A stretch of DNA of 20,136 nt. Origin: a virus. This document shows positions 4,122-18,096 of this stretch, piece by piece. Location of the stretch: the IMG/VR virus record IMGVR_UViG_3300033143_006408, positions 1 through 20,136 of that record. One strand, 5' to 3'. Numbering within the stretch: the stretch's first letter is position 1; each line of letters opens with the position of its first letter. A program made the translations under genes and the position numbers. The notes under the pieces were generated by a model, which made no database searches, was not told where the DNA came from, and was given only the letters and a program-made list of their open reading frames with translations.

Positions 4122-4580
4122 ATGATTCTAATGGCTTTTGATCCAGGTAAAACAACCGGCGTATGTGTAGCCGATGTTTCTGCAGACAATTTTCAGGTAA
4201 CAGATTGCTTTGAGATACTTTGGTCTCATCGTTTCGCGATAACCAAAGCCCTTATAAGCGGCACGTACTACAATGCACGAGTACCGCGCTTACCTGATTT
4301 TGTCGTAGCAGAATCTTTTCGTCTCAGGCAAGGTAAAGCACTATCACAAACGGGGTCAGACTTTCCTTCAGTACAAGTAATAGCAATTATTCAAACTTAT
4401 TTATATATGTATGCTCGTGCAGAGAATGGTCACGAGCTTTTAAAGCTACAAGATCCCCACATGAGAGTCAAAGTGAAAGTTATGAATGAGGACAAATCAT
4501 GGGTACTTGGCTCGCCACATCGGAAGGACGCATATCAGCACGCTCGCCTCTTTTGGGCGAAAAACATAAAAGAATACTGA
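4122..4580 (+). CDS. RuvC-like Holliday junction resolvase / RNase H-fold nuclease
   Basis: ATG at 4122 is preferred because GGGAG (4112-4116) lies five bases upstream; ATGs at 4119 and 4131 are poorly spaced. Residues 5-13 read AFDPGKTTG, the first acidic motif of RuvC-type RNase H folds (D7). E64 in VVAESF follows the central region, and HRKDAYQHA near the C-terminus supplies D136 and H140. This order (D, E, then D in a KDAxxHA-like helix) is typical of small phage RuvC-like resolvases. The 152-residue length fits. It would cut branched DNA during replication, recombination or packaging. It starts directly after a terminator and its TGA overlaps the next ATG. Confidence 0.75.
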   Translation: MILMAFDPGKTTGVCVADVSADNFQVTDCFEILWSHRFAITKALISGTYYNARVPRLPDFVVAESFRLRQGKALSQTGSDFPSVQVIAIIQTYLYMYARAENGHELLKLQDPHMRVKVKVMNEDKSWVLGSPHRKDAYQHARLFWAKNIKEY

Positions 4581-4858
4581 TGACTAAACTTAAGTTATTT
4601 GTCATTACCTTTCATAAAAACAAAACTGTAGCTGTAACAGTAACAACTGATATAGACACAGTAATCAAACATGCTTTTGGTATATTACATCCTGTTAGTG
4701 CGGTACCCACAAAACCCGACACGCATAACATTTTTGTGGGCACTGAATTTGCAGCCTGTGTTACAGAACATAATTTCAACGAGCGAACTATTTATGTCCT
4801 ATCAAAGGAGAGCAAATGGACACACCCTCATTACCTAAAGACGCAAAAGACTTTCTAG
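4580..4858 (+). CDS. Hypothetical protein, 92 aa
   Basis: ATG at 4580 shares one base with the resolvase stop (TGATG), indicating coupled translation. The protein has a beta-rich N-terminal half (LKLFVITFHKNKTVAVTVTT) and a basic, His-containing end. No motif or membrane segment is visible. It overlaps the following gene by 43 bases. Family not recognised and function unknown. Confidence 0.6.
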   Translation: MTKLKLFVITFHKNKTVAVTVTTDIDTVIKHAFGILHPVSAVPTKPDTHNIFVGTEFAACVTEHNFNERTIYVLSKESKWTHPHYLKTQKTF

Positions 4859-5040
4859 AAGCGACGAAAATCAAACTCACCATCAAAAAAGGGGATGCAG
4901 GATGGGGTCGCAAAAGTGAAACACCTCTAACCAAGAAGCGCCACAAAATCGCCAAAGCTAGCAAACGTATCAATCGCAGACGTACGAAGGCTCACAAACG
5001 TCGTGTCCGCAAACAGAAAGCGAAAGGAACAAACCAATGA
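4816..5040 (+). CDS. Small highly basic protein, 74 aa
   Basis: ATG at 4816 follows AAAGGAG with a five-base spacer. The N-terminal 40 residues are mixed. From about residue 40 the chain is dense in Lys and Arg (KRINRRRTKAHKRRVRKQK), resembling a disordered nucleic-acid-binding tail or ribosomal-protein-like helix. No enzyme motif is present. Codons include more C-ending forms (ATC, CTC, CGC) than the flanking genes. It may bind DNA or RNA, an inference from charge alone. Its end overlaps the next gene's start (ATGA). Confidence 0.7.
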   Translation: MDTPSLPKDAKDFLEATKIKLTIKKGDAGWGRKSETPLTKKRHKIAKASKRINRRRTKAHKRRVRKQKAKGTNQ

Positions 5041-5303
5041 ATTCCAAGATTAAGAATCAAGGTACCATAAACCCTAACGAATTGAAAGCTGGCGATATCT
5101 TCATTACGACCGTTGTCTGCCACGTACGAAACTCCATTCAACAACCGGGCAAGTTGGCCTTTAAGATATACGAAGCTCGCCCTCCTATCTTTGAGGTTGA
5201 CGGCATTCCTCAAGGTAATCCTGTACATTCACCTGATGATACAGCATTTGGTCATGCATTGTTTTACCCTCTGGGCGCATTGGATCTTCATCATGAATCT
5301 TAA
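5037..5303 (+). CDS. Hypothetical protein, 88 aa
   Basis: ATG at 5037 overlaps the previous stop (ATGA 5037-5040), with AAAGGAA upstream. The sequence suggests a small beta-rich domain: NPNELKAGDIFITTVV, then a basic stretch and FEVDGIPQGN, ending with a His-rich tail (LDLHHES). It may be SH3-like, but this is not secure. It overlaps the next gene by 11 bases, and both are small putative beta-barrel proteins just upstream of the helicase. Confidence 0.6.
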   Translation: MNSKIKNQGTINPNELKAGDIFITTVVCHVRNSIQQPGKLAFKIYEARPPIFEVDGIPQGNPVHSPDDTAFGHALFYPLGALDLHHES

Positions 5304-5607
5304 ACAAGGCACACAAGTCGCTTACATCCCAACGCACGCTCACGGTGATATCGATCATGAAGCTGTCGAATTTGGTTTTGTGACTAAGGTTGACGTAGCT
5401 AAGCAAGTCGCTTGGGTGCGATACTGGAAAGGAGATCCCAGCAAAACAATGCATAGAGTTCTTCGCACAACCGGCAATAGCGAACGTTCGCGTCTCTCTT
5501 TGCTATCAGTGTGCGAGAAAATTTCCCGACGACTAATTGACAGAGAACTTTATAGACTCAACTACATAACCAGAGAAGAATTCACCTTACGTCAAATGGG
5601 TTGGTAG
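5293..5607 (+). CDS. Conserved phage protein with SH3-like N-terminus, 104 aa
   Basis: ATG at 5293 begins MNLKQGTQVAYIPTHAHGD; the SD is weak (GGATC) and translation is probably coupled to the gene ending at 5303. The pattern G-x-x-VAYIPxHAxGDxxHExxExG followed by VxxVxWVRYW (residues 6-45) resembles small SH3-like proteins common in phage genomes and annotated as hypothetical. The C-terminal half is basic and helical (ERSRLSLLSVCEKISRRL). It ends one base into the helicase gene (TAGTG). The molecular role of this family is not known to me. Confidence 0.6.
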   Translation: MNLKQGTQVAYIPTHAHGDIDHEAVEFGFVTKVDVAKQVAWVRYWKGDPSKTMHRVLRTTGNSERSRLSLLSVCEKISRRLIDRELYRLNYITREEFTLRQMGW

Positions 5608-6902
5608 TGAAAACACCTTACCCCTTTCAGCGTACTGCCATAGAAAGAATTCTATCATCGGCCGGCTTCCTGCTAGCCGATGATTGTGGTTGTGGCAAGA
5701 CTCTCGTATCTGTAGAAGTAGCGAAAGCGTCTCGCGAACTAGGTCAGAATAAAGTTCTCTTAGTTCTTCCTCATAGCGCAATAGCACAATGGATAGAGAC
5801 AATACATGAGCAAGATCCTGACTACGGACGAATATTGGTAATGAATAAAATACCGTGGAAACTAAATGACTTTGAAGGCTACGCTATTGTCACATACCCC
5901 GAACTATTCGACGATATATCAATAAATAATCTTCGTACTGTCTTGTGGGATTGGGTAATTGCTGATGAAGGCCATCGCTTTAAAAATCGAAAGACAGGAA
6001 CATTTAAATCTATAAAGAATCTCAATTACGTTCGAGGACTTGTACTGACTGCAACTCCGTCTGAGACTACCTCTGCTGACTACTGGGCTCTCTTACACTT
6101 TGTTCGACCAGATATATTCAAAGCTTTCTGGGGATTCGTTGCTAAGTGGATAATAAAAAAACCCGGGTATCAAAATCATTGGGTACTGGGGGGTGCAAAA
6201 GATCCCAAAGCCTTTGCTACTATGTTACAACCTTATGTATTACAAAGAGCACGTCGCGATGTCATGCCCGATTTGCCTCCAATGATTATCGCTGACATTC
6301 CCGTAGACTTTTTGCCTAAACAAGCCGAAGCATATAAACAATTCAAGGAAGCGGACGATATACTTGTACCAGTGCAAGAGAAAGAATTCTTGGTTACAAA
6401 CGTATTATCCTTCATCACCAAAGCCCATCAAGTATCGGTAGATCCTTCTTTGATTGGACTAAAGGGTTACTCAGGCAAGCTAGCATGGCTTGATGATTGG
6501 CTCTCTGATCACCCAAATGATCCCACAGTCATCTTTACACGATTTCGAGACCTCGCAATTAAACTATCCGAAGAGTACGACGGAGATCTAGTCGTGGGAG
6601 GTATGGGTGGTGTGCCTGCCGAGTGTTTTAAGACGGGCAAGACTCGCCTGATCTTTGGTACAATAGATGCTATGGGTGAGACGCTGAACTTACAACGTGC
6701 TCGTCATGCCATCTTTTTAGATGCTCATTGGTCTCATCGTGCAATGAAACAAGCAACTGATCGCATTGATCGAATGGATATCACATCACCTAGTACTGTT
6801 TATCGTCTATATTCATGTTATGAAGATCGTTTAGTATTGACTGCTGTAGACGAGAAGTGGAATGAGGGGGAGTTAGTGAGAAAATATCTTCAGGGTGACT
6901 AA
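5607..6902 (+). CDS. SNF2-type DEAD/DEAH helicase (ATP-dependent DNA translocase)
   Basis: The start is uncertain: GTG 5607 overlaps the previous TAG, and TTG 5601 would add two residues; neither has a good SD. Motifs are in superfamily 2 order: Q-like TPYPFQ (residues 3-8), Walker A ADDCGCGKT (24-32), DEAH-type DEGH (120-123), LTATPS (147-152) and motif VI QATDRIDRM (382-390). The Walker A centre reads CGC where SNF2 proteins often have MGLG. At 431 residues it is the compact phage SNF2 form, probably remodelling or unwinding DNA at forks or recombination intermediates. It precedes the recombination and replication genes. It may have lost the usual Gly-Gln after motif VI (RMD instead of R-G-Q). 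Confidence 0.88.
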   Translation: MKTPYPFQRTAIERILSSAGFLLADDCGCGKTLVSVEVAKASRELGQNKVLLVLPHSAIAQWIETIHEQDPDYGRILVMNKIPWKLNDFEGYAIVTYPELFDDISINNLRTVLWDWVIADEGHRFKNRKTGTFKSIKNLNYVRGLVLTATPSETTSADYWALLHFVRPDIFKAFWGFVAKWIIKKPGYQNHWVLGGAKDPKAFATMLQPYVLQRARRDVMPDLPPMIIADIPVDFLPKQAEAYKQFKEADDILVPVQEKEFLVTNVLSFITKAHQVSVDPSLIGLKGYSGKLAWLDDWLSDHPNDPTVIFTRFRDLAIKLSEEYDGDLVVGGMGGVPAECFKTGKTRLIFGTIDAMGETLNLQRARHAIFLDAHWSHRAMKQATDRIDRMDITSPSTVYRLYSCYEDRLVLTAVDEKWNEGELVRKYLQGD

Positions 6903-6935
6903 ACCTTTTTAGACCTTTTATTTTTTTGGGAAATG

Positions 6936-6960
6936 TATTATAATTACCATCTAATTGAAA
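6936..6960 (+). promoter_or_regulatory. Probable promoter for nuclease/replication operon
   Basis: TATAAT (6939-6944) lies 34 bases before the nuclease ATG. TATTATAATTAC (6936-6947) is identical to 1782-1793, and ATTGAAA follows six bases later (five in the other copy). A T-rich tract (6916-6927) precedes it, but no good -35 hexamer is present. Recurrence of the same -10 and downstream sequence supports a shared phage promoter type. Confidence 0.6.
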
Positions 6961-6978
6961 ACAGCAACGGGAGCTTAT

Positions 6979-8037
6979 ATGGCGTCAATATCAATACACA
7001 TCTCTGATGTAAAAACTTTTCGTCAGTGTCGCAGAAAGTGGGGTTGGTCATCTGCATTGCGAGAAAACCTTGAACCTATCATACCATATGCGCCCTTCTT
7101 TACAGGAAGAGCTGTACATGATTCTTTAGAGCAATATTATCTACATGATACAGATTTGTTTTTAGCATTGCAACAGTATCTAGATAAAGAATTAGCTGAG
7201 ATAGCGAAGTTAGAATTGTGGCCCTCCGAACAACAAAAAGTGGATGAGCAGATAGAACTTATCGAAGCTGTATTAACTCATTATACTCTTTGGCAAGAGT
7301 TCGACAGAAAGAACTACTCTGATAGAAACCTGGAATTTCTCGCTATGGAAGTTCCATTTGAAATTCCGTTGCTGGATCCTAAAGGGCGTGAAGTTCCAGG
7401 TTTTACTTTAGGTGGTCGTTTCGATGGTTGGGTACGTAATAAAACTACAGGCGAGTATTGGATTTGGGAAGCTAAAACAACTCGCTCAGTATCTGAATTA
7501 TTACGTTCACTTGCTCTCGATGAACAATCTTCATTATACTTACATGCTGCAGAAATTCATTTTGGAATAAAACCTGAGGGTATCCTATATAATGTGATGC
7601 GAAAAAAGGGACCCACTAAACCTGTTATACTCAAAAACGGCGGTCTCAGTCGAGCGAAAAATATGGACACAACTTCCTTTGCTTATCTTGATACTGTAAT
7701 GGAAGCATTTAATTGGACTAGAGAAACTGCTCTAGAAGAATACAGTCACACAGTCGCTCAGTATGAAGAGAATGAAGCAAAATTTTTCAAGCGCTTTCCC
7801 CTACGTAAAACTCGTCAAGTAATAGATTCAGTATTAGAGGGATTGTATTATACTGCGTTAGAAATGACGAACCCAGATATCACTTTATACTCAGCTCCTG
7901 GATGGCTATCTTGCAACTTCTGTTTATTCAAGAGCGTCTGTATAGCACAGAACGCAGGCGGGAATTATCGAGACATACTAAACTTAGAATTCCAAAAACG
8001 AAAATCGAATACGTCTGATCGAACAAAAAAGGAGTAA
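6979..8037 (+). CDS. Cas4/RecB-like PD-(D/E)XK exonuclease with iron-sulfur cysteines
   Basis: ATG at 6979 has a CGGGAG SD; an upstream TTG at 6955 overlaps the promoter region. The catalytic core reads: H47 in GRAVHDSL, D149 in GGRFDGW, E164-x-K166 in IWEAKT, and a QxxxY-like element (Q183, Y187). Four cysteines match the Cas4/AddB iron-sulfur layout: C17 in FRQCRRKW near the start, then C312, C315 and C321 in SCNFCLFKSVC. Proteins of this family degrade or process DNA ends, and phage members act in recombination. It is followed two bases later by the Sak4-like ATPase gene. At 352 residues it is longer than typical Cas4 and closer to phage RecB-like exonucleases. Confidence 0.85.
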   Translation: MASISIHISDVKTFRQCRRKWGWSSALRENLEPIIPYAPFFTGRAVHDSLEQYYLHDTDLFLALQQYLDKELAEIAKLELWPSEQQKVDEQIELIEAVLTHYTLWQEFDRKNYSDRNLEFLAMEVPFEIPLLDPKGREVPGFTLGGRFDGWVRNKTTGEYWIWEAKTTRSVSELLRSLALDEQSSLYLHAAEIHFGIKPEGILYNVMRKKGPTKPVILKNGGLSRAKNMDTTSFAYLDTVMEAFNWTRETALEEYSHTVAQYEENEAKFFKRFPLRKTRQVIDSVLEGLYYTALEMTNPDITLYSAPGWLSCNFCLFKSVCIAQNAGGNYRDILNLEFQKRKSNTSDRTKKE

Positions 8038-11734: not shown

Positions 11735-12463
11735 ATGAAAAATGTGGTTTTATTTTCGGGAGGCGTAGATTCAACTACTGCGTTAGCGATGGCGTGTAAG
11801 GATGGACCTGAAGAGACATTAGCTCTTTCTGTAACGTACGGATCAAAGCACGAATCAGCTGAAATGCGTGCTGCAAGAAGTATTGTTGATTTTTTTGGTT
11901 GCAAACACGAAATAATTAAATTACCAGAATCAATTTTCCAAGGTAATGTATCTGCATTGATGGCAGATGCTGACATTGAAATGCCTCAAGCTGAGTATCA
12001 AGAAGTAGAAAAAGAAGGTCCATCATCAACTGTCGTGCCATTTCGTAATGCTTTATTCTTGACTATAGCAACTGCACGTGCAATAATTCATGATGCTAAC
12101 TATCTGTGGATAGCAACACATATGTCTGATTATGCTAATTGGGCGTATCCCGATTGTAGCCCAGAGTTTCTGGGTGGTATGGCAAATGCAATTTATGTAG
12201 GTACTATGCATAAAGTACGTTTAATCACTCCCTTCTCCTGGATGGCTAAAACTGGTATCATAAGTATAGCCAAAGCATACAATGTTCCGTTAGAGCTTAC
12301 ATGGTCTTGCTATCAAGGTGGCCTCTTTCATTGCGGAACATGTCCTACCTGTTTAGAACGTATTGCAGCTTTTAACGGAGCAGGTTTTACAGATGCTGTA
12401 GAGTACCTAACTTTTCCTTTGTGGTCACTAACAAACAAACCTTGGGAGGTTTCTGATGTTTGA
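11735..12463 (+). CDS. queC: QueC, 7-cyano-7-deazaguanine (preQ0) synthase
   Basis: ATG at 11735 follows GGAGG (11725-11729). It converts 7-carboxy-7-deazaguanine to preQ0 using ATP and ammonia. PP-loop motif SGGVDSTT is at 8-15. VPFRN (101-105) and YPDCSPEFL (138-146) match QueC, and zinc cysteines C192, C200, C203 and C206 sit in a CxxG...CGxCxxCLER arrangement. Length 242 aa is near the family norm. No amidotransferase domain is attached, so it is plain QueC rather than the fused form tied to 7-formamidino-7-deazaguanine. First gene of the modification set; it overlaps queD by eight bases. No preQ1-type riboswitch fits in the short gap upstream. Confidence 0.94.
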   Translation: MKNVVLFSGGVDSTTALAMACKDGPEETLALSVTYGSKHESAEMRAARSIVDFFGCKHEIIKLPESIFQGNVSALMADADIEMPQAEYQEVEKEGPSSTVVPFRNALFLTIATARAIIHDANYLWIATHMSDYANWAYPDCSPEFLGGMANAIYVGTMHKVRLITPFSWMAKTGIISIAKAYNVPLELTWSCYQGGLFHCGTCPTCLERIAAFNGAGFTDAVEYLTFPLWSLTNKPWEVSDV

Positions 12464-12914
12464 AATATCACGGCAGTACCATTTTAGCGCGGCGCACCGT
12501 CTTGAGGGTCATCCTAAATGTGGTCGTATGCATGGCCATAATTACGATGTAATAGTTGAAATTTCATCTGAGCGAATACCTCCAAACGGTATGCTCATTG
12601 ATTACGGTGAGTTAGATAATCACATCAAACCCTTGATCGCTTATTTAGATCACCGTTTCTTGGTCAGTGAGGATAATATCGAAGCTAACTGTCCTTATGT
12701 AGCAGCGGCACCAAAAACTGATGTCGTTCTTTTGCATTGCACAGCTTCCACAGCTGAAATGTTATCTCAGTATTTGCATACCCGTATTAGCGATATTGAT
12801 TGGCGAGAAAAGGGTTATCCTTGTATTGCAATGAGTTTTCTTACAGTCACCATTAAGGAGACTGCTAAGAGTGTTGCCTCTTATGCAGATTTCATGGCCA
12901 GCCAAATAACGTGA
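12456..12914 (+). CDS. queD: QueD, 6-carboxytetrahydropterin synthase
   Basis: ATG at 12456 overlaps the end of queC. QueD turns 7,8-dihydroneopterin triphosphate into 6-carboxytetrahydropterin, the second step to preQ0. The zinc site is H14 (FSAAHRL) with H26 and H28 (GRMHGHNY). The catalytic Cys is C22 and the partner D65-H66 is in LDHRF; E135 lies in TIKET. At 152 residues it is longer than the usual roughly 120. The extra length lies largely between LDHRF and the conserved TAE segment (about 68-97), and includes Cys residues. The family resemblance to PTPS is strong; QueD function is supported by the operon. Confidence 0.92.
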   Translation: MFEISRQYHFSAAHRLEGHPKCGRMHGHNYDVIVEISSERIPPNGMLIDYGELDNHIKPLIAYLDHRFLVSEDNIEANCPYVAAAPKTDVVLLHCTASTAEMLSQYLHTRISDIDWREKGYPCIAMSFLTVTIKETAKSVASYADFMASQIT

Positions 12915-13321
12915 AACCAACATCCCGAGACAAGGCTTATTTTGCAGGATTCTTTGATGGTGAAGGCTCTGTTATGCTCGGATTAAATCAATCCGGGGGT
13001 CTTCGTCTCGGGGTATCTTGCTCACAGAACACTAAGAACGTCATGGATATGTTCGAAAACTTTTTTGGCGGGCATGTCTATAGTTACACCCCTACTGGTC
13101 GCACATCATTAATATATCAATGGCGAGCTAATGGAAAGGTTGCTTATGACTTTTGTATTATTATGCAAGATCTTTTGATTGTCAAACTATATGTATGTAT
13201 GGAAGCAATCGAAACATACGAAGTAAAAGACGATAAACCCTTAATGCGATCATTAGTAAAAGCACATAAAGCTCATTTGAAAGAGGAACGATATGCCAGA
13301 AACCGGAAAAAAGATAATTGA
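12911..13321 (+). CDS. LAGLIDADG homing endonuclease (free-standing)
   Basis: A GTG start at 12911 overlaps the queD stop (GTGA). Residues 10-20, YFAGFFDGEGS, form one LAGLIDADG-type motif with catalytic D16/E18. FFGG and IYQW further on match the usual endonuclease core. With one motif and 136 residues it should work as a dimer. Homing endonucleases cut a target DNA sequence and spread by repair. It is neither inside an intron nor an intein as far as can be seen; it sits between queD and the next gene in the operon, overlapping the next gene by 29 bases. It does not contribute to preQ0 synthesis. Confidence 0.85.
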   Translation: MKPTSRDKAYFAGFFDGEGSVMLGLNQSGGLRLGVSCSQNTKNVMDMFENFFGGHVYSYTPTGRTSLIYQWRANGKVAYDFCIIMQDLLIVKLYVCMEAIETYEVKDDKPLMRSLVKAHKAHLKEERYARNRKKDN

Positions 13322-13562
13322 TGAACGTAATGATGTCTATGGCGAAGCGTGGTCATTGCATGGTATTATGTTATCCGCATGCTCGTCACGATTGATGGAT
13401 CTTCTGATTACACAGCCAAAATATTTCTTTGCGTGGAATCTAATTTTCAATAAATTAATCCGAGCACTCGCAACACCTTTAGATGAAGATCATTGGATCG
13501 ATATTCAAGGCTATGCTGAATTAGTGCTCCAAGATATAAGAAGAGGAAAACATGGATCTTAA
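13293..13562 (+). CDS. DUF6378/DUF1599-like phage protein
   Basis: ATG at 13293 has GAGGAA upstream and overlaps the homing endonuclease gene by 29 bases and queE by 11. The motifs IIDERNDVYGEAWSLHG (8-24) and KLIRALATPLDEDHWIDIQGY (54-74) resemble phage DUF6378/DUF1599-type proteins, a small helical group with a MazG-like look. The acidic and His residues (E11, D14, D66, D70) could bind metal or a nucleotide. Its role is unestablished; presence within the preQ0 operon makes a nucleotide-related role plausible, but such genes also occur in phages without deazaguanine pathways. Length 89 aa. Confidence 0.65.
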   Translation: MPETGKKIIDERNDVYGEAWSLHGIMLSACSSRLMDLLITQPKYFFAWNLIFNKLIRALATPLDEDHWIDIQGYAELVLQDIRRGKHGS

Positions 13563-14217
13563 TGAAACGAAATATGGAGTGAATGAAATATTTCATTCTA
13601 TACAAGGCGAGGGAAGATGGCAAGGTTCGCCCGCTACCTTTATTCGTTTACAAGGATGTAATGTAGGATGTCCTTGGTGCGATTCGAAAAGTACGTGGAG
13701 GAAAAGTGATGAAATGTTGGGTGTATTTACTGCTCCAGAATTGTTGAAACAGTTTATACATGTAAATCGTCATACTGTAATCACAGGAGGTGAGCCCACT
13801 CTACATAATTTGCAAGATCTGATTCTTGAAATTCGTAAAGCAATTTCACCCGTGTTTATTCAATTAGAGACCTCGGGACAAAATAAGATAGAAGGTTTTG
13901 GTATTTTTGATTGGATTACTTGGTCGCCAAAAGAAGTCTTGAATTTTGAAGCACATGAAGATATCTATCTATTAGTAAACGAGATAAAATTTGTTGTTGA
14001 TGAACCTCTCACTATAAGCGCAGTACATAAATGTCTGACGCAACGAAAATATCCCAATTTAAAGTCTGTTGCTTTTATGCCCGAAGGTTCTCCGCCTACG
14101 GATAACACTATTCAGTATGCAAGAAACATGGCACAAATTTTTCAAGATTTTTCAAGTGATATTTATGTTAATGTCATGTATGCAGATCGATTACAATGTC
14201 GTTTAGGAGTAAAATAA
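13552..14217 (+). CDS. queE: QueE, 7-carboxy-7-deazaguanine synthase (radical SAM)
   Basis: ATG at 13552 follows AGAGGAAA and overlaps the previous gene by 11 bases. QueE makes the 7-deazaguanine ring from 6-carboxytetrahydropterin. FHSIQGEG (14-21) and the cluster motif C36-x3-C40-x2-C43 (GCNVGCPWCDS) are the QueE hallmarks, with TGGEPTLH as the SAM-binding motif. Length 221 aa fits. Its stop shares a base with the folE ATG (TAATG). It has the standard radical-SAM cluster spacing and no missing residue. Confidence 0.94.
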   Translation: MDLNETKYGVNEIFHSIQGEGRWQGSPATFIRLQGCNVGCPWCDSKSTWRKSDEMLGVFTAPELLKQFIHVNRHTVITGGEPTLHNLQDLILEIRKAISPVFIQLETSGQNKIEGFGIFDWITWSPKEVLNFEAHEDIYLLVNEIKFVVDEPLTISAVHKCLTQRKYPNLKSVAFMPEGSPPTDNTIQYARNMAQIFQDFSSDIYVNVMYADRLQCRLGVK

Positions 14218-14780
14218 TGACAACAGAAATAAAGTACAGTTCCGAAATTACTGCAATAGCACACCAGCTAACGGAAATTTTCGGTAAAGAAGTTTGGGAT
14301 GATAGTGTAGAACAAACGGCCGAGCGCTGGATTCGTGCCATGAATGAATTCATACCCGAAAAAGAAATAGGATTCAAATTCACGACTTTCGAAGCTGAAG
14401 TCAATCAATTAATTGTGGTTAGAAATATCAAGTTTGCATCACTGTGTGCACACCACTTATTCCCTTTCCAAGGGGTCGTACATGTGGGATACCTTCCTAA
14501 CAGATTGCAAGTCGGACTCAGTAAGATACCTCGTCTTGTACATCATTTTGCAAAACGACCTCATGTACAAGAAGGTCTAACGGCTCAGATTGCCAAGTAC
14601 CTCAAAGATCGTTTAGAGGCACAAGGTGTTGCAGTAGTGATCGAAGCACAGCACACCTGCATGTCTTGTCGGGGAATTCGCGAGCACGATGCACAAATGG
14701 TTACTTCTGAGATGAAGGGAACTTTCCTTACATCTGGCACAGCACGAAACGAATTTCTCCGAGCAATAGGCTTATCATGA
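14217..14780 (+). CDS. folE: GTP cyclohydrolase I (FolE)
   Basis: ATG at 14217 is preceded by AGGAG and overlaps the queE stop. FolE converts GTP to dihydroneopterin triphosphate, the first step of this pathway and of folate synthesis. Zinc ligands C77 and H80 (LCAHHLFPF) and C148 (QHTCMSCRG) are all present, with VGLSKIPRLV and TSGTARNEFL as typical surrounding motifs. Length 187 aa is slightly short of the bacterial enzyme, mainly at the N-terminus. Having its own copy lets the phage raise pterin supply without depending on host flux. It overlaps the dpdA-like gene by four bases (ATGA). Confidence 0.95.
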   Translation: MTTEIKYSSEITAIAHQLTEIFGKEVWDDSVEQTAERWIRAMNEFIPEKEIGFKFTTFEAEVNQLIVVRNIKFASLCAHHLFPFQGVVHVGYLPNRLQVGLSKIPRLVHHFAKRPHVQEGLTAQIAKYLKDRLEAQGVAVVIEAQHTCMSCRGIREHDAQMVTSEMKGTFLTSGTARNEFLRAIGLS

Positions 14781-15496
14781 AACTAGCAGTTATATCACCA
14801 CCACAATGTATACATTCAGTTATGAAAGCACAGCTCGGATATCACATGGCTTTGGGTCAAGAACTAGTTGCAGACGAAATATACGAACGTATTTATACGG
14901 AGTTTAGTTATCGAGGTCATTATATTATTGTAGATAACGGAGCTGCCGAACGCGCAGATACGTCATTTCATCAGATAGTATTAGCAGCTAGTTTTGTCAA
15001 TGCAGATGAGATTGCTATGCCTGATGTATTACATGATAGTCGAGGTACAATTAAAGCCACACGTGCAGCAATACACTTAGTACCGGAACATAAACGTATG
15101 TTCATACCCCAAGGCGTAGATTGGAAAGATTGGAAACACTGTTTGAAACACCTCTCTCGATTGGGCGGTAAATCCATCGGTGTTCCCAAATTACTCCAGG
15201 GCTTGACTGGCGGTCGAGTAGAGGCTCTTAAAATTATTTATGATTTACAGCTTCACAATACTTTCGATATTCACTTGTTAGGATGTAATCGAGAACCTCT
15301 AAAAGAGATTCGTGAAATTCTTGTGCGATATGATTGGGTACGAGGCATTGATACTGGCGCACCGATTGCATATGCACAGCATGATAATTATATCTCTTCG
15401 CCTATTCGTCATTCATTAGACTGGAACGCTTCGTGTAATAAAGATATTGCAGAACAAAATATTCAAAAAATGATGGAGATATGTGATGGCGCCTAA
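14777..15496 (+). CDS. dpdA: DpdA-like 7-deazaguanine DNA transglycosylase
   Basis: ATG at 14777 overlaps folE (ATGA). DpdA proteins are TGT-related enzymes that replace guanine in DNA with a 7-deazaguanine base. VDNGAAE (52-58, D53) matches the conserved DNGA element. MPDVLHDS (81-88), MFIPQG (108-113) and GIDTGAPIAYA (190-200) fit the phage-type enzyme, D192 being the likely nucleophile. DIHLLGCN (164-171) is another conserved strand. At 239 residues it is the short phage form lacking the extra regions of the larger bacterial DpdA. With the complete preQ0 route beside it, the likely substrate is preQ0. It could use another deazaguanine if a modifying gene lies outside the window. Confidence 0.85.
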   Translation: MKLAVISPPQCIHSVMKAQLGYHMALGQELVADEIYERIYTEFSYRGHYIIVDNGAAERADTSFHQIVLAASFVNADEIAMPDVLHDSRGTIKATRAAIHLVPEHKRMFIPQGVDWKDWKHCLKHLSRLGGKSIGVPKLLQGLTGGRVEALKIIYDLQLHNTFDIHLLGCNREPLKEIREILVRYDWVRGIDTGAPIAYAQHDNYISSPIRHSLDWNASCNKDIAEQNIQKMMEICDGA

Positions 15497-15761
15497 ACAA
15501 GGTAGAGTCGAACATTTGCATTATGTAGCTGTCGATCCCGAAACAGGTAAAATTGACGGTGTGCTTTGCTATGACCGCCGTTCACAAACGTGTACGGTAT
15601 TGATGTGGAATAAACGATCCATACAAAAGCTTATGCAAGCGGCAGAAGCGCTTAGCTGTCCGACTGTATGTATAATGGAATCCGATAATGTCAAAATATC
15701 TGAGCTTCTAACTCTTGGTTGGGAGCCTACGAATGAAACAGTACTAATGAAGAAGGTGTAA
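15486..15761 (+). CDS. Hypothetical protein, possible GNAT-like fragment, 91 aa
   Basis: ATG at 15486 follows GGAG (15475-15478) by seven bases and overlaps dpdA by 11; a GTG at 15483 is an alternative. The sequence has DPETGKIDGVLCYD as a beta-turn-beta element. It ends ISELLTLGWEPTNETVLMKKV, which resembles the last helix and strand of GNAT acetyltransferases (an LGF-like turn followed by a strand). It lacks the acetyl-CoA-binding RxxGxG/A motif, so enzymatic activity is doubtful. Lying between dpdA and the DNA polymerase, it may be an accessory protein for modification or replication, inferred from position only. Confidence 0.6.
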   Translation: MAPKQGRVEHLHYVAVDPETGKIDGVLCYDRRSQTCTVLMWNKRSIQKLMQAAEALSCPTVCIMESDNVKISELLTLGWEPTNETVLMKKV

Positions 15762-15762
15762 T

Positions 15763-18096
15763 ATGGAATCACTACCGGGAGCGAGATGCTCTGTATGTCC
15801 TCTAGCTAATCCAGATAGTTTTCCTTTATCAGGATCTGGTCCTGATGATGCAGAGTTTATTTATGTAGGTGATAGTCCGGGCTCTACAGAGTTGTTTGCC
15901 AGACAACCATTGGCCGGCAATGCTAGAGTTTTACTGGATGCTGCTGTAAAGGAGGCGGGCGGAGATGTCGCGTCTGTCTTTCATACTAACATAGTTGCTT
16001 GCAAATCAAACTCCCGTAGTGGTCCTTCTGAGCAAGCAATTGCTTGTTGTCTTCCGCGTTTGAAATTAGAGCTTAAAGCGCTCAGTACAAAGAAAGTGGT
16101 TGCGGCAGGCCTTACAGCTCATCGCACTTTTGGAGTACCCTCAAATGAAAAGGGCGCAATTTATGATGTAGTTGATAAGCAAGTGATGCCTACATGGAAT
16201 CCTTCGTACATATTGCAACAACCAGCACACGGGGCTGAATTCTTAAAGCAGATCGATAGAGCTGTAAACGGTCCGTTTGTAAAAGACTTCATTAAACCGC
16301 CTGAACGGAATCACGTTAAAACGCTGAATGAGTTACAGCAGGCTCTCGATGCTTGTCCAGACGGAGTGAGAGTCTCTTTTGATATCGAGACGGACCAGGT
16401 TGTTTGGTTTAGACGGCCTGACAAAGCTCCTGACCCCATTCTCATGATGCAAATCTGTTGGACGTTAGATTTAGTCATTATCCTAACTGATGAATTATTT
16501 TACGATACTGATGGTTGCGTAGACATTCTTCAGAAATTTTTTGATAGGGTCCAAGTAGGGGGGCAAAACTTAAAGTTCGATTGTGTTTTCGTTAAAGCAC
16601 ATCTTGGCTTAGTTATCGAACAACATTTCGATACTATGCTTGCACATTATGCTCTTGATGAAAACTCGCCTCACGGCCTCAAAGTATTAGTACGAGAAGA
16701 ATTTGGGGTACCAGATTATGAAGCTACGACAATTAGCAAATATCTATCGAAAAAGAGTGATCGATATTCGAAGATTCCAACGGACGTTTTGGCTGAGTAT
16801 GGAGCTTTAGATGTAGTAGGTGTGCTATTGCTTTGGGATGTTTACGAAAAACGATTACGAGAGCAAAATCGATATGAAATGCCTTTTCAACAGATACTAA
16901 TGGCTGCTGCCAATAAATTTGTTGATATTGAAATTCGTGGCATTAAAGTAGATAGAAAACAATTGACGGAGGCGTCGAAAGAACTTGGAGAAATATGTGA
17001 TAGCTTGAAAGCTATAATGCGGGATCTGTGTGATAAGCCCGATTTCAATCCCAATTCTCCCCAGCAAGTTGCCATAGTATTGTTTGATGATTTTGGATTA
17101 CCTGAAGCACGTCCAACAAAGAAACTAAAAGCTCGTTCTACGAATAAAGATATTCTTGAGCGTCATAAAGGTAAACATCCATTTATTAAGCCTCTCCGGG
17201 AATATCGCCGGGTAGCAAAAATGAGATCTTCGTATGTCGACAACATGTTTGATATGATTGATTGCGATGATCGTGTGCATGCGACATTTAGTATACCGGG
17301 AACAGAAGTAGGTCGTTTAGCTGTACGTAAGCCAGCTTTGCAAACAATACCCCGACCTGATGATTACTATGGAGCATTAGTTCGAAGTTCCTTTATTCCT
17401 GGTGCAGGTAAAATTCTTGTATGTGTAGATTACTCTCAAGCTGAGCTTCGTGTCTTCGCTGTAAATTCTGGAGATCCTTTTCTACTTGATGTTTACGAAC
17501 ACGGACGAGATTTACATTCTGAAGTTGCTATTGGTATGTATGGCAATGATTATACTAAAGTACAACGTGTTCAAACAAAAATGTTTAACTTCTCTTATTT
17601 GTATGGAGGCAATAAATGGTCATTTGCACAAGATGCTGGATTGAATATTCGTATGGCCGAACAATTTGTTGATGATTATGATGCGTTGATGCCTGTAGGA
17701 AAACAATATAAACGGGATCAATTTAAGTTGTTGAAGGAACAAGGTTATGTAGAATCTGTTTTTGGCCGCCGTAGACATTTTCCGTTGATTACAAGCAGGA
17801 ACAAAGACGAAGCAAAGAAAGCTTGCGTACATATGCCTACAGCATCTGCTGCCAGTGATCTAACGTTGCTCTCAGGAATTGAAGCTGAAGAGCGTTGGGG
17901 AAATGTAGTTCTCATGGTTCATGATGAAGTTATTATCGAAGCTGATCTTTCCTTAATGAAGGAACAAGGTATAAGTCTTGCTAAGATCATGGAAGAAATG
18001 GGAGATAAGTATTTACCTGGTGTACCTTGGAAAACTGATATAGAGGAGAAATCACGATGGGCAGAACAGTTACCGAGGATAGAGAGTGGCGTTTAA
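15763..18096 (+). CDS. Family A DNA polymerase fused to UDG-like domain
   Basis: ATG at 15763 has AAGGTG upstream. Three domains can be seen. Residues 1-170 resemble iron-sulfur family 4 uracil-DNA glycosylase: CSVC (C9, C12), VGDSPG (35-40), TNIVACK (C80), ACC (C95/C96) and a WNPSYIL motif where the usual His is Asn146. Residues about 200-360 form a 3'-5' exonuclease with D207/E209 (SFDIET), N269/D273 (GGQNLKFD) and Y346/D350. The polymerase domain has motif A DYSQAELR (556-563), motif B R602-x3-K606 followed by F610 and Y614, and motif C HDE (720-722). All polymerase catalytic residues are present. It is the replicative polymerase candidate of the phage. Its last 40 bases overlap the HNH gene. 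Confidence 0.92.
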   Translation: MESLPGARCSVCPLANPDSFPLSGSGPDDAEFIYVGDSPGSTELFARQPLAGNARVLLDAAVKEAGGDVASVFHTNIVACKSNSRSGPSEQAIACCLPRLKLELKALSTKKVVAAGLTAHRTFGVPSNEKGAIYDVVDKQVMPTWNPSYILQQPAHGAEFLKQIDRAVNGPFVKDFIKPPERNHVKTLNELQQALDACPDGVRVSFDIETDQVVWFRRPDKAPDPILMMQICWTLDLVIILTDELFYDTDGCVDILQKFFDRVQVGGQNLKFDCVFVKAHLGLVIEQHFDTMLAHYALDENSPHGLKVLVREEFGVPDYEATTISKYLSKKSDRYSKIPTDVLAEYGALDVVGVLLLWDVYEKRLREQNRYEMPFQQILMAAANKFVDIEIRGIKVDRKQLTEASKELGEICDSLKAIMRDLCDKPDFNPNSPQQVAIVLFDDFGLPEARPTKKLKARSTNKDILERHKGKHPFIKPLREYRRVAKMRSSYVDNMFDMIDCDDRVHATFSIPGTEVGRLAVRKPALQTIPRPDDYYGALVRSSFIPGAGKILVCVDYSQAELRVFAVNSGDPFLLDVYEHGRDLHSEVAIGMYGNDYTKVQRVQTKMFNFSYLYGGNKWSFAQDAGLNIRMAEQFVDDYDALMPVGKQYKRDQFKLLKEQGYVESVFGRRRHFPLITSRNKDEAKKACVHMPTASAASDLTLLSGIEAEERWGNVVLMVHDEVIIEADLSLMKEQGISLAKIMEEMGDKYLPGVPWKTDIEEKSRWAEQLPRIESGV

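Follow-up and report, generated by a model that had tools for sequence, protein, structure and literature searches.

A complete preQ0 gene set in a phage genome fragment, with a putative short transglycosylase of a distinct viral family predicted to place a 7-deazaguanine in DNA

We analyzed a 20136-base linear virus record (IMGVR_UViG_3300033143_006408, positions 1–20,136; hereafter the window), a fragment of a phage genome, that carries what is probably a phage system for placing a 7-deazaguanine, most likely 7-cyano-7-deazaguanine (preQ0), for guanine in its DNA. Positions 11735–18096 form a single gene run on the plus strand, in the order queC, queD, a LAGLIDADG-like open reading frame (ORF), a DUF6378 ORF, queE, folE, a gene for a 239-aa protein, a 92-aa ORF, and the gene for a family-A DNA polymerase (PolA). 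A primase-helicase-like gene precedes this run, and upstream of it lies a series of genes common to the relatives described below: a helicase, a Cas4-like nuclease, a Sak4-like ATPase, and an SSB-like gene (names from our reading of the sequences). An initial annotation of the window had reported queC, queD, queE, and folE, their catalytic and metal residues intact, joined by overlapping starts to a short DpdA-like transglycosylase. The four genes do lie there, as family matches and motif alignments established, and starts and stops overlap or abut all the way from queC to PolA; the two ORFs inside the operon and the 92-aa ORF before PolA had been missed. As the layout is found again in dozens of independent viral contigs, the operon is not a product of chance.

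To check the motifs of the biosynthetic enzymes, we aligned the window FolE, QueD, and QueE with the proteins of phage 9g, which complement Escherichia coli mutants and restore queuosine (Hutinet 2019, PMC6884629), and the window QueC with that of phage CAjan. queC (11735–12463) encodes a 7-cyano-7-deazaguanine synthase that matches Pfam QueC at E = 1.8e-50 (query starting at 11738); its PP-loop and Cys4 motifs align with the QueC proteins of CAjan and Dp-1, SGGVDST and Cx8CGTCPTC being kept, and it is a plain QueC with no amidotransferase domain, as first annotated. queD (12456–12914), for a 6-carboxytetrahydropterin synthase (Pfam PTPS, E = 2.4e-25), keeps HFSAAH, CGRMHGHNY, LDH, and KET, and its metal-binding His and catalytic Cys, Asp-His, and Glu residues align with those of 9g QueD. 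The radical SAM motif GCNVGCPWC (CxxxCxxC) is kept in the product of queE (13552–14217), a 7-carboxy-7-deazaguanine (CDG) synthase that matches NCBIfam QueE (E = 4e-29), phrog_2076 (E = 1e-31), and Pfam Radical_SAM (2.9e-7). The GTP cyclohydrolase I encoded by folE (14196–14780; Pfam GTP_cyclohydroI, E = 2.9e-53) has its zinc ligands aligned with those of 9g FolE, within the motifs CAHH and HTCMSC. At the level of sequence, then, a complete preQ0 pathway is confirmed in the operon. We infer that FolE would convert GTP to dihydroneopterin triphosphate, QueD would make carboxytetrahydropterin, QueE would contract the ring to give CDG, and QueC would amidate and dehydrate CDG to preQ0.

Which base finally stands in the DNA depends on what else the phage encodes. 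In the 20-kb fragment we recognized no QueF, Gat domain, or other tailoring gene, with no search aimed at ArcS. A QueF model found no convincing QueF in the records of ten relatives, several of them 50–55 kb. Those of its matches that could be placed (Youna2, BSTP12, and L036) lie inside FolE and were rejected as T-fold cross-matches, and the remaining ones are weak and below the cut-off. The earlier statement that QueF is missing agrees with these results for several relatives of near-genome size, and for this phage itself it covers a 20-kb fragment. Escherichia phage CAjan and Mycobacterium phage Rosebush (Hutinet's "group 2") resemble the window in having folE, queD, queE, and queC with a transglycosylase of the tRNA-guanine transglycosylase (TGT) superfamily and no amidotransferase, and the CAjan operon is likewise next to replication genes. 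This set of FolE, QueD, QueE, QueC, and DpdA yields the deoxynucleoside of preQ0 (dPreQ0) at about 32% of G in CAjan and about 28% in Rosebush (PMC6884629). Because neither QueF nor an amidotransferase was found, our best guess for the product in the window is dPreQ0. A possible alternative is dADG, the deoxynucleoside of 7-amido-7-deazaguanine (ADG), which occurs in some phages; ADG is a QueC intermediate.

The 239-aa protein encoded at 14777–15496, for which and for whose viral relatives we use the working name sTGT, has no match in Pfam or NCBIfam and a weak one to an unnamed phage family (phrog_20335, E = 2.5e-4). An AlphaFold2 model built from an alignment of 49 sequences had a predicted local distance difference test (pLDDT) score of 97. 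Each of the 50 VIA-align rows listed for this model was a TGT (Z 17–18, 221–229 residues aligned), the best being 1iq8 (Z 18.2, root-mean-square deviation 3.2, 228 aligned), and Foldseek returned TGTs in 49 of its top 50 rows. This check of the fold had been set beforehand, and by the predicted structure sTGT is a true TGT-fold protein. The best PDB sequence for the family profile is the DNA-guanine transglycosylase 7ui4 (E = 2e-5). D192 of sTGT aligns with the nucleophile D264 of E. coli TGT, D53 aligns with the Asp of the CAjan LDSGAF motif, and D53, D83, T91, H166, G169, and D192 all align with CAjan DpdA; D53, N54, E58, T91, H166, G169, and D192 show no variation among 49 family members. 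N54, E58, R147, and N228 are specific to the family and are candidates for a phosphate or nucleotide site. As judged from these alignments, sTGT has both catalytic Asp positions of the TGT superfamily, a nucleophile (D192) and a general acid/base (D53). H166 corresponds to H187 of CAjan and H196 of 9g, and a histidine at the latter position tells DpdA from DpdA2 (Hutinet 2019, PMC6884629). The predicted reaction is an exchange of guanine for preQ0 on deoxyribose by the TGT double displacement, in which D192 would attack C1′, guanine would leave, and D53 would act as the general acid/base, with H166 at the place where DpdA has replaced the TGT tyrosine. The modification would presumably serve as protection from host nucleases.

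A TGT fold would also suit an enzyme that works on RNA, and phages with preQ0 genes but no DpdA have been suggested to boost tRNA modification (PMC6884629). sTGT would then be a stripped tRNA transglycosylase through which the phage raises preQ0 or queuosine in host tRNA. We regard this as very unlikely: the zinc motif CxCxxC, found in the C-terminal subdomain of tRNA TGTs, is present in 0 of 124 sTGT family members, the family has the DpdA-type His and not the TGT Tyr, and the gene sits among replication genes, with PolA at most two genes downstream in 50 of 63 nonredundant operons.

sTGT is not, however, a DpdA of the kind studied so far. sTGT and classical phage DpdA profiles score at most 18 bits in either direction, whereas Cellulophaga phage phiSM scores 110, and the two groups form separate clades in a tree (support 99). 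Short length was considered as a family marker and rejected, since the phiSM protein, at 240 aa, belongs to the classical DpdA profile. The transglycosylase of the CAjan and Rosebush type has 306 aa, and sTGT-family operons have DUF6378, MazG, or kinase neighbors, none of which occur in the CAjan-like operons sampled. The HLLG and SIDS motifs of the bacterial DpdA 7ui4 align with sTGT, but the 7ui4 chain runs to 436 residues, against 239 for sTGT, which consists of the barrel alone. DpdA2 of Vibrio phage nt-1 (YP_008125322) is, like sTGT, a TGT-superfamily protein encoded in a phage preQ0 cluster; it has 464 aa and lacks the conserved histidine (Hutinet 2019) that sTGT possesses, and a profile comparison of the two gave Prob 37. 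By these sequence comparisons sTGT is a distinct short viral family, neither classical phage DpdA nor DpdA2. Of the initial annotation as a short DpdA-like transglycosylase, the fold, the catalytic Asp residues, and the DpdA histidine stand, and membership of the studied DpdA group does not.

A search of viral contigs with the single window protein found no close relatives, whereas an alignment-based search succeeded. The first relatives came from five Bacillus phages and Weizmannia phage Youna2, and further ones from Flavobacterium phage immuto and from Brevundimonas, Campylobacter, Chryseobacterium, and Aeromonas phages; in IMG/VR, the family comprises more than 100 loci, most of them in que operons closely followed by PolA. 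Youna2 and Bacillus phages BSP7, BSTP5, BSTP8, BSTP10, and BSTP12 share the operon order of the window, with sTGT proteins 28–34% identical to its own. Unlike the window, Youna2 and BSTP12 have a thymidylate-kinase-like gene immediately upstream of sTGT and no DUF6378. One and the same Bacillus-phage sTGT (L003, 6839–7627, and relatives) goes by different names from record to record: NadR, integrase/recombinase, polynucleotide kinase, or a hypothetical protein. In immuto, which has que genes and deoxynucleoside monophosphate (dNMP)-kinase-like neighbors, the family member is annotated as DpdA and is 22% identical to that of the window. The window's own clade consists of 10 rows with support 100.

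One branch of the family bears on a known case. An sTGT-family protein is present in Campylobacter phages of the Firehammervirus type (CP220 group), where the CP220 gene (L009, 8995–9771) lies between an HD/P-loop gene and one that is thymidylate-kinase-like. Campylobacter phages have been counted among those without DpdA, and a modified-dGTP route has been proposed for them (PMC6884629). In Firehammervirus DNA, 7-deazaguanine derivatives are reported to take the place of all dG (PMC10273834), and two Campylobacter phage genera are described as carrying deoxyinosine and deazaguanine, respectively (PMC8713573), the assignment to each genus being our reading of these two reports together. The sister genus Fletchervirus gave no sTGT match, with its phage NCTC12673 in the searched collection. 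Firehammervirus thus resembles the window in its que genes and sTGT-family protein; it differs in that the protein is distant and has dNMP-kinase-like neighbors, and in the complete replacement of dG reported for it.

To ask whether the exchange takes place on finished DNA or on nucleotides, we compared the neighbors of 63 nonredundant sTGT operons with those of 89 classical-DpdA operons, each with at least two que genes; the CAjan-like half of this control set is phylogenetically narrow, which limits the weight of the contrast for the nucleotide route. A small P-loop kinase-like gene, called by motif alone, adjoins the transglycosylase gene in 10/63 sTGT operons and 0/89 classical ones (p = 9.5e-5). 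The kinases belong to at least four hidden Markov model (HMM) families: Youna2 and BSTP12 have a thymidylate-kinase-like gene, CP220 and immuto an AAA_28 gene (two genes from sTGT in the latter), Chryseobacterium phage an AAA_18 gene, and Aeromonas phage Ahp1 a T4-type dNMP kinase. The kinase label is scattered on the sTGT tree with at least 12 changes, which argues against one ancestral linkage. Next to sTGT, Ahp1 has a second, divergent kinase in addition to the full T4-gp1-like dNMP kinase that it encodes elsewhere; CP220, too, has a pair of kinases from a single family, one of which adjoins sTGT. MazG is the most frequent Pfam family among the other sTGT-operon genes (8/121) and is not among the Pfam families listed for the controls, which are headed by QueF, ParB, and the Vut_1 transporter; one classical operon (S0112) does have a MazG-like gene. 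We used these Pfam tallies because counts with our own MazG HMM (35/83 vs 0/45 and 1/65) are biased toward its training set. Among classical operons, those of actinobacterial phages (L083, L084, and L078) have DpdA near a ParB-like gene, unlike sTGT operons, and a nucleoside deoxyribosyltransferase gene (L077, 4379–4765) lies inside the que operon, with classical DpdA, of Aminobacter phage Erebus.

The kinase and MazG neighbors, the second kinases of Ahp1 and CP220, and the lack of a zinc motif throughout the family would all fit an enzyme that swaps guanine for preQ0 on dGMP (or dGTP) before polymerization, a reading we hold tentatively, at a little short of even chances. A phage or host kinase would then make the triphosphate, MazG-type enzymes would remove canonical dGTP, and the neighboring PolA would incorporate the modified nucleotide, in a scheme modeled on 2-aminoadenine phages and on hydroxymethyl-dCTP in T4. 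The full substitution reported for Firehammervirus and the dGTP route proposed earlier point the same way. Against it, the phrog_761 kinase is absent from six records of the window's clade (four of them 50–55 kb) and no Pfam MazG was found in the clade's records searched, the Firehammervirus sTGT is distant from that of the window, and we know of no TGT-fold enzyme that acts on mononucleotides.

Those same six records without a detected dNMP kinase are as expected if sTGT instead works on DNA in the manner of classical DpdA: it would flip out guanines, with a preference for certain motifs, and put preQ0 in place of some of them, in the tens of percent. We give this reading, too, rather less than an even chance. 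The DpdA-type histidine and the catalytic Asp positions are kept in sTGT, and in CAjan and Rosebush, which share the gene set, dPreQ0 stands for about 30% of G (PMC6884629). To our knowledge, the TGT superfamily acts on polymers throughout. Yet action on finished DNA leaves the kinase and MazG neighbors unexplained, as well as the presence of an sTGT relative in phages with complete dG replacement, and the ParB-like neighbors of classical DpdA are not among the listed families of sTGT neighbors. On account of the kinase and pyrophosphatase neighbors across the family and its presence in complete-replacement phages, we lean slightly, and only slightly, to nucleotides over finished DNA, leaving the rest to other accounts; for the family as a whole, exchange on nucleotides before polymerization is plausible. 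A wider version, in which sTGT enzymes make 7-deaza-dGMP or dGTP for a kinase and PolA, replace all genomic dG, and supply the insertion step so far unaccounted for in Firehammervirus and in many 50-kb phages, is possible but doubtful.

The initial annotation had taken the position of the operon, straight on from the replication genes, to imply modification coupled to DNA synthesis. Position is no evidence of coupling, because nucleotide-level action predicts it equally and classical DpdA operons, e.g., those of CAjan and 9g, also adjoin DNA polymerase genes. That preQ0 replaces some guanines in DNA had likewise been predicted; the preQ0 genes and the TGT-fold protein hold good, and to speak of "some guanines" and of action on DNA is to extrapolate, since sTGT differs from the DpdA enzymes studied so far.

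The remaining genes of the run are less directly tied to preQ0. The LAGLIDADG-like ORF (12911–13321), of the homing-endonuclease type, matches LAGLIDADG_1 at E = 6e-4 (below cut-off) and phrog_5046 at E = 5e-16; it lies between queD and DUF6378/queE, its ends overlap its neighbors, and most relatives lack it or have something different there. It is probably a mobile intruder. HNH genes occur at similar places in other que operons. The DUF6378 gene (13293–13562; Pfam DUF6378, E = 4e-5, below cut-off) is present in all window-clade loci that extend over this position and in none of the other loci examined. Its product has four predicted helices, a fold with no match (Foldseek best E 5, VIA Z < 5), and neither a PDB profile search nor a fold search matched it to a MazG-like pyrophosphatase. 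The 92-aa ORF (15483–15761), present in the window, L012–L017, and L020 and specific to the window clade, has no match to Pfam, NCBIfam, or phrog family models. PolA (15763–18096) closes the run, with DNA_pol_A (E = 1.3e-73) and exonuclease (2.3e-14) matches and an N-terminal domain of the uracil-DNA-glycosylase superfamily at residues 24–161 (UDG, E = 7e-15). In the window-clade loci L016 and L020, a reduced operon (about 4128–7018) consists of a Vut_1-type transporter, QueC, DUF6378, sTGT, the 92-aa ORF, and PolA; Vut_1 is a preQ0 transporter family.

Several points weigh against the view that the operon places a 7-deazaguanine in phage DNA. The reduced operons of L016 and L020 have QueC and sTGT with no QueD, QueE, or FolE nearby. 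The similarity of sTGT to DpdA of proven DNA activity is very low, the best score being 18 bits, and for members close to the window the evidence consists of sequence and predicted structure. Since the window covers part of a genome, a tailoring gene outside it could also alter the base, and ADG is another candidate product. On the other side stand the gene content, the intact residues, the TGT fold, the positions of the catalytic residues, and membership of a distinct viral family. On balance, the DNA of this phage is probably written, partly or wholly, with a modified G. The first reading of the locus as a preQ0 operon plus a transglycosylase holds, and its interpretation as a whole is partly supported.

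preQ0 operons were already known in phages. That of the window leads to a large viral transglycosylase family outside Pfam and NCBIfam, one that includes a candidate for the insertion enzyme of Firehammervirus and that makes it testable whether 7-deazaguanine is placed in DNA after replication or given to the polymerase as a nucleotide. If exchange does occur at the nucleotide level, the pathway would be a G-genome counterpart of the 2-aminoadenine Z-genome pathway, and a TGT-fold enzyme for nucleotides would offer a useful route to 7-deaza-dGTP analogues.

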